A stretch of DNA of 64,000 nucleotides from positions 124,001 through 188,000 of the forward strand of contig NZ_PGCK01000002.1 in assembly GCF_021023085.1 (NCBI RefSeq), read 5' to 3'. Made by a program: the position numbers and the translations under genes. The notes beneath the pieces are model-generated. The model did no database searches. It was not told where the DNA came from and worked only from the letters and a program-made list of their open reading frames with translations. Of this stretch, positions 3,953 through 56,155 are shown one piece after another. The DNA is from Methanooceanicella nereidis (GTDB lineage Archaea > Halobacteriota > Methanocellia > Methanocellales > Methanocellaceae). The number at the start of each line of letters is the position of its first letter. The stretch's first letter is position 1.

Positions 3953-4666
3953 TCATATGATCTGCATGAGATAATTCCCGAGCAGGTAAATGCCATATAT
4001 GATAAATATCGCCCCGATGGGCTTTCTTATATATGGCTCCGCTTTGACTATCTTTTTAACATAGGATCTTGCGAAAGCGGCGCTCACTCCCAGCAACAGA
4101 GCAAAGATCAGGACGGGAAGGCCGGTCCCGATACCGAACAGTAACGGGTAGCTCATCCCTACCAGGTCCGAATTAAGAGCCAGAGGCACCAGAAGCCCGA
4201 AGAACATCACCGCCGTGTACGGACAAAAAGCCAGCGCGAATACCACACCCAGCAAGAACGCACCCATTGTCCCCCGGTCGGATAGCTGAATGCCGTATTT
4301 TGACTTTAGCCCGTCGCCGAACATTATGTTCGGCTTATAGACCTCAAGCATGATCACCCCTACAAGTATCAGTACAGGACCGAGCAGTAGTTTTTCATAA
4401 TCCTGAAGCGCGGGTGCGTTATCCATGACTGCAGACCCGAAAAGATAGATCATGATACCCAGGAGAGTATATGTTAAAGCGCGCCCGAGGGTATACATGA
4501 TCCCTGCGATCATGGCGCTGCGAGAATCCGCCAGTTTTGACGATACGTACGCGATCGCAGTGATATTTGCCGAAAGAGGACACGGGCCTATTGCCGTGAT
4601 AATACCGATAGCAAAGGCATATATTAAAGGAAAATCTTTGAGGAAGACAAGAGCGGAGAGATCCAT
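3953..4666 (-). CDS. arsG: ArsG-like / CcdA-family membrane protein, copy 1
   Basis: Integral membrane protein of 237 residues with about six helices. It belongs to the DsbD/CcdA (LysE-like) fold, in the branch annotated as ArsG organoarsenical efflux permease. Two single cysteines sit at equivalent places in the two halves: GPCPLS near residue 29 and FCPYT near residue 148, as in CcdA, where the pair shuttles thiol electrons across the membrane. It lies six bases downstream of an arsF gene on the same strand. The known Shewanella arsEFG operon gives resistance to nitroaromatic arsenicals. Whether this copy pumps arsenicals or moves electrons to ArsF is open; the Cys pair favours the latter. 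Confidence 0.8.
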   Translation of the reverse strand: MDLSALVFLKDFPLIYAFAIGIITAIGPCPLSANITAIAYVSSKLADSRSAMIAGIMYTLGRALTYTLLGIMIYLFGSAVMDNAPALQDYEKLLLGPVLILVGVIMLEVYKPNIMFGDGLKSKYGIQLSDRGTMGAFLLGVVFALAFCPYTAVMFFGLLVPLALNSDLVGMSYPLLFGIGTGLPVLIFALLLGVSAAFARSYVKKIVKAEPYIRKPIGAIFIIYGIYLLGNYLMQII

Positions 4667-35885: not shown

Positions 35886-35982
35886 TGGGCCCGCTGCGAT
35901 TTGAACGCAGGACCTCTCGGTTATCAGCCGAGCGCTTGTCGCTGCTTTTTGAGCAGTTCCGACCTGGCTAAGCTACGGGCCC
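35886..35982 (-). tRNA. tRNA-Ile(GAT) with a 22-base intron in the D arm
   Basis: Acceptor GGGCCCG pairs with CGGGCCC, anticodon stem CTCGG/CCGAG holds loop CTGATAA (anticodon GAT), and the T arm reads CTGCG-TTCAAAT-CGCAG, so this is tRNA-Ile. A 22-base insert (35936-35957) interrupts the 3' half of the D stem. Removing it restores GGTCGGAGCGCTCGG exactly. The insert can form a bulge-helix-bulge: central helix GTCG/CGAC, three-base bulges GAA and AAG, inner hairpin CTGC/GCAG. Cutting two bases into each bulge, as archaeal splicing endonuclease does, removes just these 22 bases. CCA is not encoded. Transcription is leftward. Confidence 0.92.
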
Positions 35983-51454: not shown

Positions 51455-52441
51455 CTATATTTTACCTGTTCCCGGCCTTGCAAAAAATACCCAGCAGTCA
51501 TAGATGCTCTTTTCGTCCTGGTTATCTATTACCTCGCCTTCCACACCCATGGCTTTAAAGGACTCTGCAAGGAAATCCATCTCATCATTCTGGTTCACGG
51601 TCAACAGAATGAACCCCCCGTCCTTTAAAAGCTTCAGGGACTCATGGAATATGTTCCTCCAGATCTCTTTGTTGAACTCGTATATCGCACCGAGCATGAA
51701 TCCTATGACAGCATCATATTTTTTATCCATGTGTTTTGAAAGTTCAGTAGCGTCGACGACCATCGTGTCCCGGGGCTTTAATGTGCCGTGATATAGCCCA
51801 TTGCACACCGCACATCGGTCGTTGTCTATGGAAATGATGCTCTTGAACAGCGGCCTCGCCGGCACGGTGGACATGCCGTTGCCGCAGCATATCTCCAGCG
51901 CGTTCATCCCCTTCAGGTCATACTCGTATTTTGCCGACAGTGCTTTTATAAGCGACCTTATACGTTCATTCCTTTTTTTGTTAAACACGAAGGATTTTGG
52001 GTCCTTTACGACATCGCAGTCACATAGCGACCCTTCCGCAAGGCTTACGCTTAAGTATTCCCTGACTGCCTCGCCGAATTTGGCCTGATCGACCTTTTTT
52101 GTTTTTATAGAGCGAGCTACACCGGAGGATAGTATCTCATTTACCATCTTCTCGGTCTGTTTTTTCATGGCGGTAGCTTCTGGATAGGGAATGACGAACC
52201 AAAAGTCCCCTTCAGGATGTTTATTCTTGAAAGATACTCCAAGTGTAGAGCCATTTTTATCTGCTATCAGGAGAGCACTCTCGATCGCGCCTTCGTTCAG
52301 TATCCTCAATTTATCAAGATAATCAAGTGTTCTCAGGTTCATGTTAAGCGACTCAAAACTACACTCTATTAGAAATACGTCCTCATTACCCGGATCCACT
52401 ATCTTTTGAAGGAGCATACAGACTAATCTGCGCTTACCCAT
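51455..52441 (-). CDS. SAM-dependent methyltransferase
   Basis: 328 residues from ATG 52441 (a TTG 13 codons earlier is open). Residues 1-150 are unrecognised; the C-terminal half is a class I methyltransferase with ALEICCGNGMST (SAM site near residue 202), VVDATELSKHMDKKYDAVIG and a late LLKDGGFILLTVNQNDE strand. The Cys-Cys in the G-loop (EICCGNG) is unusual. The substrate is unknown. It diverges from the gene at 52550. Confidence 0.75.
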   Translation of the reverse strand: MGKRRLVCMLLQKIVDPGNEDVFLIECSFESLNMNLRTLDYLDKLRILNEGAIESALLIADKNGSTLGVSFKNKHPEGDFWFVIPYPEATAMKKQTEKMVNEILSSGVARSIKTKKVDQAKFGEAVREYLSVSLAEGSLCDCDVVKDPKSFVFNKKRNERIRSLIKALSAKYEYDLKGMNALEICCGNGMSTVPARPLFKSIISIDNDRCAVCNGLYHGTLKPRDTMVVDATELSKHMDKKYDAVIGFMLGAIYEFNKEIWRNIFHESLKLLKDGGFILLTVNQNDEMDFLAESFKAMGVEGEVIDNQDEKSIYDCWVFFARPGTGKI

Positions 52442-52549
52442 TTTATATGTTCTGCTTTTGTATGAAAGAACTTCAACCAATGAATAAATTTAACTTTATA
52501 ACTATACAAATAATAATATAATAAAAAATCATAAAAAATTACATGAGGG

Positions 52550-53137
52550 ATGTGCATTCCGGGCAGGAACAGAACTTTAAAGAATGTGCATAAGATCAGT
52601 ATCTCGCTGTCTGCAGAGGTGCTCGACTGGGTATATAAAAATAAGGGTGATATGAAAGTATCCACCTTTATCAATAAAGCCCTTAAAGACAGGATGACCG
52701 GCGGATCCGGCCTATCCTGCAACGTATGCGAAGAGCTCCGCATCATAGAGAACAGGCTAAAAAGGCTCGAGGAGGACATACACGACCTGAGGATGATAAA
52801 GACGAAGAAAGCCGGGACATTGAGCGCTAAAGAACATATCTCGATACTCTCCGCCCGGCCTAAGGAAGTTTTTGGGGAACTTGTCAACATTAAAAATGTT
52901 TCTGCAAATAACGCCATGGCGGTCTATCAGGAGCTTTTACCATTCATTCAGAAAAAGAAGGTCATCGATAGGGAAGTAGTCCTTAAAGAGCTTTTTCCAA
53001 ACACCGGTTCTTCTATCACCAATAACATTAATTACTGGTACAATGCCTGTCGGGGGGTCCTTGACCACCTTATCGAGCGCGGCGATGTGATAAAGGTTGA
53101 CAAGAATAAATATAAGTGGATAGGAAAAAGGCCATAA
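52550..53137 (+). CDS. Helix-rich possible DNA-binding protein, unknown
   Basis: 195 residues. The N-terminus KISISLSAEVLDWVYKNKGDMKVSTFINKALKDRM reads like a ribbon-helix-helix strand and two helices, next comes a CNVCEELRIIENRLKRLEEDIHDLRM coiled coil with a CxxC, and the C-terminal VIDREVVLKELFPNTGSSITNNINYWYNACRGVLDHLIERGDVIKV resembles a winged helix. No homologue is recognised. GTG at 52586 is the alternative start at the first strand. It lies 112 bases before the structured RNA candidate. Confidence 0.65.
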   Translation: MCIPGRNRTLKNVHKISISLSAEVLDWVYKNKGDMKVSTFINKALKDRMTGGSGLSCNVCEELRIIENRLKRLEEDIHDLRMIKTKKAGTLSAKEHISILSARPKEVFGELVNIKNVSANNAMAVYQELLPFIQKKKVIDREVVLKELFPNTGSSITNNINYWYNACRGVLDHLIERGDVIKVDKNKYKWIGKRP

Positions 53138-53218
53138 AAACATATGATACATTAATTTTCGCCAAAAATATTAACCCTTGGATAGTTTAGAACGCAGATG
53201 CGATTTCTATTAATAAAA

Positions 53219-53230
53219 TATATATAAATA
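53219..53230 (+). promoter_or_regulatory. TATA box of the structured RNA
   Basis: TATATATAAATA runs into the RNA start about 20-25 bases downstream, the normal archaeal distance. No ribosome binding site or start codon follows. Confidence 0.6.
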
Positions 53231-53248
53231 TGTAATCATTATACTTTT

Positions 53249-53359
53249 TGGGAGCGTAATAACACGCTGCGAAGGTAGCGCGAACAGGACATGGCGTCGA
53301 AAGATGTCGTGCCGAGTTAATAATAGGTCCGAAAGGATCTAAGAAATGTTACGCTCCCA
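53249..53359 (+). ncRNA. Structured RNA of unknown family, four-way junction
   Basis: About 111 bases of GC-rich DNA in an AT-rich gap, with its own TATA box. Its ends close in an 11-pair stem (TGGGAGCGTAA 53249-53259 with TTACGCTCCCA 53349-53359). Three hairpins lie inside: CGCTGC-GAAG-GTAGCG (53265-53280), a nine-pair stem CATGGCGTC-GAAA-GATGTCGTG (53290-53311) and TAGGTCC-GAAA-GGATCTA (53324-53341). The two GAAA tetraloops and GT pairs indicate RNA-level selection. It does not look like tRNA, RNase P, SRP or H/ACA RNA. Open frames across it contain stops. Confidence 0.75.
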
Positions 53360-53567
53360 TTTAACGTTTCGGCTTTTGAATCCCGGAGATTTTTAAAAAT
53401 TTCTTCTTGTTCAATGTGGTGTCTTAGTTCGCTGATTTAGAGTATCTTATCGGATAGGATTGTATATGCTGATGGCCTTTAGTGCTGTACGCGGATATGA
53501 TGAATTTTCATCTCAAAGACTCAATGTTTCACTTTATTCATGGCGACAAACAAGATCATATGAGTTA

Positions 53568-53985
53568 ACCACAAAGCGCACAAAGGCGAACAAGGACCAC
53601 TATCTTTCACCACAAAGCGCACAAAGGCGAACAAGGACCACTATCTTTCACCACAAAGCGCACAAAGGCGAACAAGGACCACTATCTTTCACCACAAAGC
53701 GCACAAAGGCGAACAAGGTACACCAGTTTCCACCACGAAGGGCTCGAAGGGCTCGAAGGTTCACAAAGGACTTTTTTAGAAAATTAGCATATTTTTTAAA
53801 AAAATTTTTGTGTACCTTACTCGCCTTCGTGCGCTTAGTGGTTAGCAGTTTGGTGTACCTTACTCGCCTTCGTGCGCTTAGTGGTTAGCAGTTTGGTGTA
53901 CCTTACTCGCCTTCGTGCGCTTAGTGGTTAGCAGTTTGGTGTACCTTACTCGCCTTCGTGCGCTTAGTGGTTGACAAATTAGTGG
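53568..53985. repeat. Tandem repeat array with inverted arms, locus 2
   Basis: Left arm: four 41-base units starting 53568, 53609, 53650 and 53691, with ACCACAAAGCGCACAAAGG. Right arm: four 43-base units starting 53810, 53853, 53896 and 53939, the reverse complement theme (CGCTTAGTGG, GTGTACCTT). An A-rich spacer of about 60-80 bases lies between. The units differ from locus 1 only in detail. A 142-codon frame across the left arm is an artefact of the periodicity. Confidence 0.8.
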
Positions 53986-54147
53986 CCTTAGAGCCCTTTG
54001 TGGTTAGCCTGACCAATGATAAACCAATAAATGGTATTAAAGAAATTACCGGATACTGCACTTAGAGATGCACGTTTATAGATAATGCCCGATACATTCA
54101 GGGTCATCGATAAGTACTTTTGAAAATATATTATCATACTGATAGCT

Positions 54148-55578
54148 ATGAGGATGCTTATAGACGGTGAATTTATCGAATCCAGTAGCAAAGAGACCAT
54201 CGGTATTAAAAATCCGGCGACGGGGGAATTCATAGATAGTGTCCCCCTTGGAAATTCGGATGACGTGGGCAGGGCAGTGGACGCGGCAGAGAAGGCTTTC
54301 GACGACTGGTCGGCAATGGTACCCAGGGAACGCGGAAAGATACTATTCAAGGCCGCCCAGATCGTAAGAGAACGCGCCAGAGGACTGGCGGAGATATTGA
54401 CCTCCGAACAGGGTAAGCCTTACAAAGAGGCCCGCGACGAGGTGCTCGGGTTCGCGAACGTGCTCGAATACTATAACGGGATATCGGCTTCGCTACAGGG
54501 CGGTTTCGTACCGCTGGCATCCGACAGGTATTGTATGGTCCTAAAGCAGCCAGTAGGCGTTTGCGGCGCGATAATACCATGGAACGTTCCGGCAATATTG
54601 ATGGGCTGGAAAGTGGGGCCGGCACTGGTGACCGGTAATACCATGGTATTAAAACCGTCTAGCACTTCGCCGCTTACGGATCTTTCCCTTGCGTCCATAC
54701 TTACAGAGGCTGGGCTGCCCAAAGGTGTCCTCAACGTCGTCACAGGCCACGGACAGGCAGTAGGCGAGCCTCTTGTAACCAATAGTAAAGTCAGGAAAAT
54801 ATCGTTCACGGGTTCAACGGAGACCGGCATGAGGATCAAGGAATTAACTTCAGGCTCTCTAAAAAGGATAACGCTGGAGCTTGGAGGCAGTGACCCCATG
54901 ATAGTATGCGACGACGTCGATATTGATACGGCGGTAGAGGGTGCGGTCAGGGGACGTTTCTATAATTGCGGGCAGACATGCACGGCAGTAAAGCGCCTTT
55001 TCGTATTCGAGTCGATAGCGGAAGAATACATTCGAAAGCTATCTTCGCGCATATCCGGATTGAAGGTCGGCAACGGAATGAACAAGGATGTCGACATCGG
55101 CCCCCTTAATAATTATGATCAGCGCGAAAAGATGATCTCGCAGATGAAACGCGTCAGAGAGAACAACGAAGGCATCGTTGTCACAGGCGGTAAGATCCCC
55201 GAAGGTCCCCAATATGATAATGGATTTTTCTACACTCCCACACTTGTAAGGGACGTAATTAAAGACTCTGTGCTGTTAAAAGAGGAGGTCTTCGGCCCGA
55301 TATTGCCCGTTGTAGTTGTAAAGGACCTGGACGAGGCGATCGAGCTTGCGAACGATACGCGCTACGGCCTGGGAGCATCGGTATGGACCAGGGACATCAA
55401 AAAGGCGACATATGCCACAGCGAGGTTACAATCTGGCATAGTATGGATCAACCAGCATACAAAGGCGCCTGCGGACGTACCTTTCGGCGGTATTAAAGAC
55501 AGCGGCCTTGGAAGGGAGAACGGCCTGGACTCGCTCTACGAGTACCAGGAAATAAAGACAGTAATGGTCAATGTTTAA
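54148..55578 (+). CDS. NAD(P)-dependent aldehyde dehydrogenase
   Basis: 476 residues, ALDH superfamily near lactaldehyde/succinate-semialdehyde dehydrogenases. Motifs: IIPWNVP near residue 142, FTGSTETG near 219, catalytic base Glu244 in LELGGSDP, nucleophile Cys278 in GQTCTA, and EEVFGPILPV near 387. It oxidises an aldehyde to a carboxylate; in methanogens close relatives serve F420 biosynthesis (lactaldehyde), but the substrate is not readable. The first of two nearby ATGs is used. It stands between two repeat arrays. Confidence 0.93.
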   Translation: MRMLIDGEFIESSSKETIGIKNPATGEFIDSVPLGNSDDVGRAVDAAEKAFDDWSAMVPRERGKILFKAAQIVRERARGLAEILTSEQGKPYKEARDEVLGFANVLEYYNGISASLQGGFVPLASDRYCMVLKQPVGVCGAIIPWNVPAILMGWKVGPALVTGNTMVLKPSSTSPLTDLSLASILTEAGLPKGVLNVVTGHGQAVGEPLVTNSKVRKISFTGSTETGMRIKELTSGSLKRITLELGGSDPMIVCDDVDIDTAVEGAVRGRFYNCGQTCTAVKRLFVFESIAEEYIRKLSSRISGLKVGNGMNKDVDIGPLNNYDQREKMISQMKRVRENNEGIVVTGGKIPEGPQYDNGFFYTPTLVRDVIKDSVLLKEEVFGPILPVVVVKDLDEAIELANDTRYGLGASVWTRDIKKATYATARLQSGIVWINQHTKAPADVPFGGIKDSGLGRENGLDSLYEYQEIKTVMVNV

Positions 55579-55659
55579 GCATCGTCGTAGTTTACGATGA
55601 TGATAAAGTGCTTTTTTGCACTTTATCCTTACAATTGGCATAAATGCTCAACACTCTAA

Positions 55660-56155
55660 CTACGAGTCGCACAAAGGTAACAAAGGAACACTATTTCTCA
55701 CCACAAAGGACACAAAGGCAAACAAGGAACACAAGCCCAACCACAAAGGACACAAAGGCAAACAAGGAACACAAGCCTAACCACTAAGTACACAAGGGCA
55801 ACAAAGGAACACAAGCCCAACCACAAAGTACACAAGGGCAACAAAGGAACACAAATGATTTCTTAAGATGACATATATATTCTGTCCAAATTTGTCTGTA
55901 TTTTACAATCCATACATGTGCTTTATTGTCATCATGTTTGATATACGGAAAAAATTGTGACAGTGCCTTATGTTAACATATTCTAAAAAAATTTGTGTAC
56001 CTTTATTGCCCTTGTGTACTTTGTGGTTAAGCTAGTGTACCTTAGTAACCCTCGTGTACTTAGTGGTTAAGCTAGTGTACCTTAGTAACCCTCGTGTACT
56101 TAGTGGTTAAGCTAGTGTACCTTAGTTGCCTTAGTGAGTTTTATGGTTTGAAAAC
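55660..56155. repeat. Tandem repeat array with inverted arms, locus 3
   Basis: Left arm: 40-base units starting 55701, 55741, 55781 and 55821 (CCACAAAGGACACAAAGG, AACAAGGAAC). Right arm: 40-base units starting 55995, 56035, 56075 and 56115 (GTGTACCTTAGTAACC, TTAGTGGTTAAGC). The spacer (55861-55994) ends in a TTCTAAAAAAATTTGTG run as in loci 1 and 2. It sits between converging genes, like locus 1. Confidence 0.8.

Follow-up and report, generated by a model that had tools for sequence, protein, structure and literature searches.

A candidate structured RNA gene of the Methanocellales kept in shape and place, not in sequence

The window, meaning the whole 64-kb stretch of DNA that was analysed, very probably carries an RNA gene at positions 53249-53359 on the + strand. 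It belongs to a known kind of gene, the stand-alone structured non-coding RNAs, but as a class whose shape and location are conserved and whose sequence is not. The comparison covered four genomes of the class (the Methanocella group), which are that of the window (G000), M. arvoryzae MRE50 (G001), M. paludicola SANAE (G002) and a Methanocella MAG (G003), and each of the four has, next to the same methyltransferase gene, a TATA box and after it an element of 111-137 nt in which a closing stem carries three arms. The case rests on the coincidence of place, TATA spacing, a shared GGGAG start and compensating changes. The reading we moderately favour, from sequence comparison, is a lineage-specific, free-standing structured non-coding RNA that would work in trans via its shape, as a protein scaffold or decoy.

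Fold and promoter of the window copy

The features of the locus in the window are as follows:

53249..53359, + strand: structured RNA body, four-way junction, 111 nt (minimum free energy, z-score and syntenic structured RNAs in three other genomes)
53249..53261, + strand: closing stem P1, 5′ strand (fold and covariation)
53347..53359, + strand: closing stem P1, 3′ strand (fold and covariation)
53263..53282, + strand: arm P2, 6-bp hairpin with a GAAG loop (fold)
53283..53318, + strand: arm P3, long hairpin with a GAAA loop at 53299-53302 on a C-G pair (fold)
53324..53341, + strand: arm P4, 7-bp hairpin with a GAAA loop at 53331-53334 on a C-G pair (fold)
53218..53230, + strand: TATA-box promoter element AATATATATAAAT, spanning about -31 to -19 relative to the first stem base (sequence)
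53366..53394, + strand: putative termination region, CGTTTCGGCTTTT and then TTTTT at 53390-53394 (predicted from sequence)
52550..53137, + strand: upstream gene, 195 aa, with a ribbon-helix-helix-like N terminus and a winged-helix-like C terminus; not part of the RNA gene
51455..52480, - strand: methyltransferase-domain gene, the conserved synteny anchor in all four genomes

The + strand of 53249-53359 folds with a minimum free energy (MFE) of -54.9 kcal/mol (z -9.0), and 0 of 200 dinucleotide shuffles were as low; the longer segment of the original prediction (53219-53359) gave -56 (z -8.2). When P1 was held fixed and only the interior of the window copy was shuffled, z was still -6.0. Among 111-nt segments tiled along both strands of the whole 64 kb, the RNA has the lowest GC-corrected energy, -6.05 against -4.3 for the next-best one. 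This runner-up structured segment (GC-corrected z -4.3) is found at 55518-55628 (+), at the 3′ end of the aldehyde dehydrogenase gene. The unpaired letters of the window copy are almost solely short A-rich junction strands and tight tetraloops. The original prediction had proposed a closing stem of 11 pairs and three hairpins, two of them with GAAA on C-G pairs, and no coding frame; the stem is present with a length of 13 pairs, not 11, the hairpins are seen in the fold of the window copy, the third loop being GAAG and not a GNRA loop, and no ORF of at least 20 aa overlaps the window copy on the + strand.

A TATA box at the right distance had likewise been predicted, and AT-rich TATA heptamers are found at -24 to -30 of the window copy, with a similar spacing in the four genomes: in each of the four orthologues the AT-only heptamers begin at -34 to -29, in three they continue to -24 or beyond, and in M. 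paludicola the promoter letters themselves resemble those of the window copy. On the other side, CGTTTCGG(G)CTTTT is found again just 3′ of the RNA in the MAG. The transcript would begin with the first base of the closing stem or a base next to it and would end in the T-runs 3′ of the RNA, and the product would be a nuclease-resistant RNA with both ends paired.

The view that the RNA belongs to no known archaeal family agrees with a cmscan search against Rfam 15, which returned no family at the gathering threshold for the window, M. arvoryzae and M. paludicola loci, and nothing meaningful for the window RNA up to E=10 (best 14 bits versus a cut-off of 88). RNase P and SRP RNAs (RF00373 and RF01857) are present elsewhere in each genome and the RNA locus has no match to them; no tRNA was called there by cmscan or ARAGORN; and no Rfam snoRNA/sRNA model, H/ACA or C/D guide, matched at cut-off at the window, M. 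arvoryzae and M. paludicola loci. The arms are plain hairpins without a pseudouridylation pocket, and inspection by eye did not reveal guide-RNA boxes. A literature search found no report of the RNA, and in the M. paludicola genome paper RNA annotation was by Rfam and tRNA finders only (PMC3146512). Elsewhere in the window, 35886-35982 (-) is a tRNA by Rfam that was missed by ARAGORN; the match covers 97 nt versus a 71-position model, and therefore probably contains an intron.

Orthologues recovered by gene order and covariation of the closing stem

A BLAST comparison with 40 relatives returned only the RNA itself, and one with phages nothing; the RNA is single-copy in each of the four genomes. 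The covariance model R1, built from this one sequence, had no match among 60 relatives or, at E<=10, in the class, and when run unfiltered on the syntenic loci it gave only a weak partial match, the closing stem in the MAG (E 0.09). The BLAST and covariance-model searches that the original prediction had proposed for finding relatives were therefore fruitless, and homologues were recovered via gene order only. In M. arvoryzae and M. paludicola, the intergenic region directly 3′ of the orthologue of the upstream gene holds a TATA box and a multi-arm fold closed by a stem; in the MAG, CGGGAGCACA...UGUGCUCCCG with three arms is found between the methyltransferase and aldehyde dehydrogenase genes. 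The loci of methyltransferase relatives in other families (L031-L046, L052) held no convincing syntenic junction RNA, and a methyltransferase scan of contigs returned only the MAG contig and an ANME-2 locus. As far as searched, the RNA seems confined to the Methanocellales.

The folding z-scores of the four copies are -9.0 (window), -3.4, -3.4 and -4.8 (MAG), with closing stems of 8-13 bp, and the MFE folds have exactly three arms in all four, a number that shuffled interiors yield 25-28% of the time. The inner arms of the three GC-rich orthologues reach a z of only -1.5 to -2.0 against shuffled interiors, and the centroid fold of the M. arvoryzae copy is unlike its MFE fold. Taken alone, the stems of M. 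arvoryzae and M. paludicola are not exceptional against intergenic shuffles (reached by 90/200 and 14/200, respectively), and that of M. paludicola has an A.C mismatch. With a descriptor made of a TATA box, a stem of 8 or more bp and 3 or more arms, the RNA was the best + strand match in the window, the sole match in the M. arvoryzae locus and, in the MAG locus, the top match of its strand; the M. paludicola copy was missed.

Across the four copies, five of the eight aligned closing-stem pairs changed on both sides and none on one side only; 30 of 32 cells are paired (93.8%, versus 82.0 +/- 3.2 in shuffles), and the covariation score was reached by 0 of 500 shuffles. When the partner columns were slid by 1-3, pairing fell to about 39-61%. 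The evidence is limited to the closing stem, because the inner-arm pairs cannot be aligned across species, and it is strong but not final, with four rows and a structure partly chosen from them. Covariation across homologues had been named beforehand as a test, and the closing stem passed it with homologues taken by gene order, so that the RNA has, in this stem, the covarying structure of a stand-alone non-coding RNA gene.

Mode of action and alternative readings

Given that the RNA exists, a protein-bound mechanism is rather probable. It would be the shape of the RNA that acts in trans: a protein would recognise the junction or the stems, and the RNA would be its scaffold or its decoy, while mRNA pairing or small-molecule binding would be less likely. 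Since the window copy is almost fully paired and the shape is kept while the letters are not, trans action through shape appears the most likely mode, and a shape kept without sequence fits an RNA recognised by its backbone geometry.

Most studied archaeal sRNAs are thought to act by mRNA base-pairing, and the size, the promoter of its own and the lineage restriction of the RNA are typical of them. It could accordingly be imagined as a trans-acting regulatory sRNA that pairs with mRNAs, its fold serving mainly for stability, and larger unpaired loops are indeed seen in the MAG (about 10 nt) and M. arvoryzae (7-13 nt) copies. We consider this unlikely, as the tight tetraloops and A-rich junction strands of the window copy offer no free pairing seed, and the four copies have no conserved unpaired segment in common.

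The position between two genes raises the question of a cis element, which could belong to the upstream regulator gene as its 3′ untranslated end or to the aldehyde dehydrogenase gene as its 5′ leader; both neighbours are on the strand of the RNA in the window and M. arvoryzae, and the dehydrogenase comes next in three of the four genomes (window, M. arvoryzae and MAG). This reading is improbable in view of the variation of these neighbours. Orthologues of the upstream gene are present in M. arvoryzae and M. paludicola (54 and 65% identity), which makes it conserved in three of the four Methanocella genomes, but it is absent from the MAG, where the RNA is kept; the RNA is therefore a separate unit and not one half of an obligate pair. 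On the 3′ side, a phosphoesterase-like ORF takes the place of the dehydrogenase in M. paludicola, the dehydrogenase, where it follows, lies between about 135 and 790 nt away, with repeats filling this gap in the window, and AT-rich candidate promoters were seen by eye directly 5′ of the dehydrogenase gene, while the RNA has its own TATA box. The methyltransferase is constant while the + strand neighbours vary, which argues that the RNA is independent of both flanking coding genes. With a constant TATA spacing and neighbours that are lost or replaced, it has the promoter of its own and the separation from neighbouring mRNAs of a stand-alone non-coding RNA gene. The independent structured RNA gene of the original prediction is upheld by the TATA box, the lack of an Rfam family, the closing-stem covariation and an upstream gene that is missing from the MAG.

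The original prediction had also pointed to a helix-rich protein just upstream, which is the product of the 52550..53137 gene. Its N terminus resembles the BrnA antitoxin ribbon-helix-helix (E 0.016 to 0.22, below the curated cut-off), no Pfam family scores above cut-off, and comparison with the genome contigs and viral contigs gave no match. The predicted structure has a pLDDT of 62 and only weak winged-helix matches by Foldseek, and because of this low confidence and these weak matches the model was left out of the functional argument. On such weak evidence, the protein looks like a transcription regulator with ribbon-helix-helix and winged-helix parts.

Tandem arrays of 40-43 nt repeats (ACCACAAAGCGCACAAAGGCGAACAAGG...) at 53565-54010 and 55656-56150 flank the aldehyde dehydrogenase gene of the window on each side, and each contains repeats in both orientations, forming a large inverted repeat. 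A comparable CGCAGAG repeat pair follows the dehydrogenase gene in the MAG (L030, about 4050-4240). Between the RNA and the dehydrogenase gene of M. arvoryzae (L016, about 2315-2356) there are palindromic GTACAGAGTTTGTACA...TGTACAAACTCTGTAC repeats looking like a putative regulator binding site.

Two of the four copies have almost perfect inverted repeats of 10-13 bp at their termini, which could suggest an element that works as DNA, such as a cruciform, a protein-binding site or the remnant of a mobile element, and we hold this to be very unlikely. The + strand folds better than the - strand in all four copies (MFE -54.9/-34.2 in the window, -61.4/-60.1, -55.2/-50.3 and -56.2/-44.3 in the others), and the 18 G-U pairs that the copies have in total on the + strand would be A.C on the - strand, indicating one transcribed strand in each of the four; this speaks for a transcribed RNA and against a DNA palindrome. 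The element is single-copy in each genome and has no relatives elsewhere, so that the dispersed copies of a MITE or transposon end are not found, no target-site duplication was seen by eye, and such an element would explain neither the three arms inside it nor the spacing of the TATA box.

The two GAAA loops on C-G pairs and the four-way junction of the window copy had inspired the idea of a catalytic RNA with tertiary docking, but a ribozyme or ligand-binding RNA using GNRA loops in this way is hardly credible, since the GAAA loops are missing from the other three orthologues, and neither a sequence core nor a conserved unpaired segment is common to the four, while known ribozyme and riboswitch classes retain a conserved unpaired core.

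Comparison with known RNAs and significance

Like a tRNA, the shape-based trans-acting RNA that we favour has a closing stem and three arms in a four-way junction; unlike a tRNA, its closing stem has 8-13 bp, and there is no CCA end and no T-loop or D-loop signature. The sRNA154 of Methanosarcina is sequence-conserved and acts on nitrogen-fixation mRNAs. It is likewise a stand-alone intergenic methanogen RNA of about 100-140 nt with its own promoter, whereas the RNA described here, with homology compared through Rfam only, has no conserved sequence or exposed pairing region. Methanosarcina sRNAs of this kind are mentioned in PMC5867862 and PMC3177094. The candidate trans-acting structured RNAs of Weinberg et al. 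(2010; PMC2864571) are likewise lineage-specific, covarying and stand-alone, but they are recognisable from conserved blocks of sequence and most of them are in Rfam, neither of which is true here.

Even inside its own family the RNA escaped both BLAST and a covariance model, and gene order alone recovered it. It also illustrates that structured RNAs of archaea can diverge past recognition between genera. A function is known for only a few of the small RNAs of archaea, and the pipelines that discover such RNAs depend on sequence conservation; with only shape and place conserved, comparative-genomics pipelines would probably miss this RNA. If it is expressed, M. arvoryzae and M. paludicola, both in culture and with sequenced genomes, would be two methanogens that make an RNA of defined fold. 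A further-reaching and more tentative interpretation of the comparison is that it may be a new RNP-forming structural RNA of the Methanocellales in which only the architecture, a closed three-arm junction at a single fixed site of the chromosome, is selected and nearly every base turns over; if this architecture-only selection were true, there would be a class of archaeal housekeeping or regulatory RNAs invisible to sequence-based RNA discovery.
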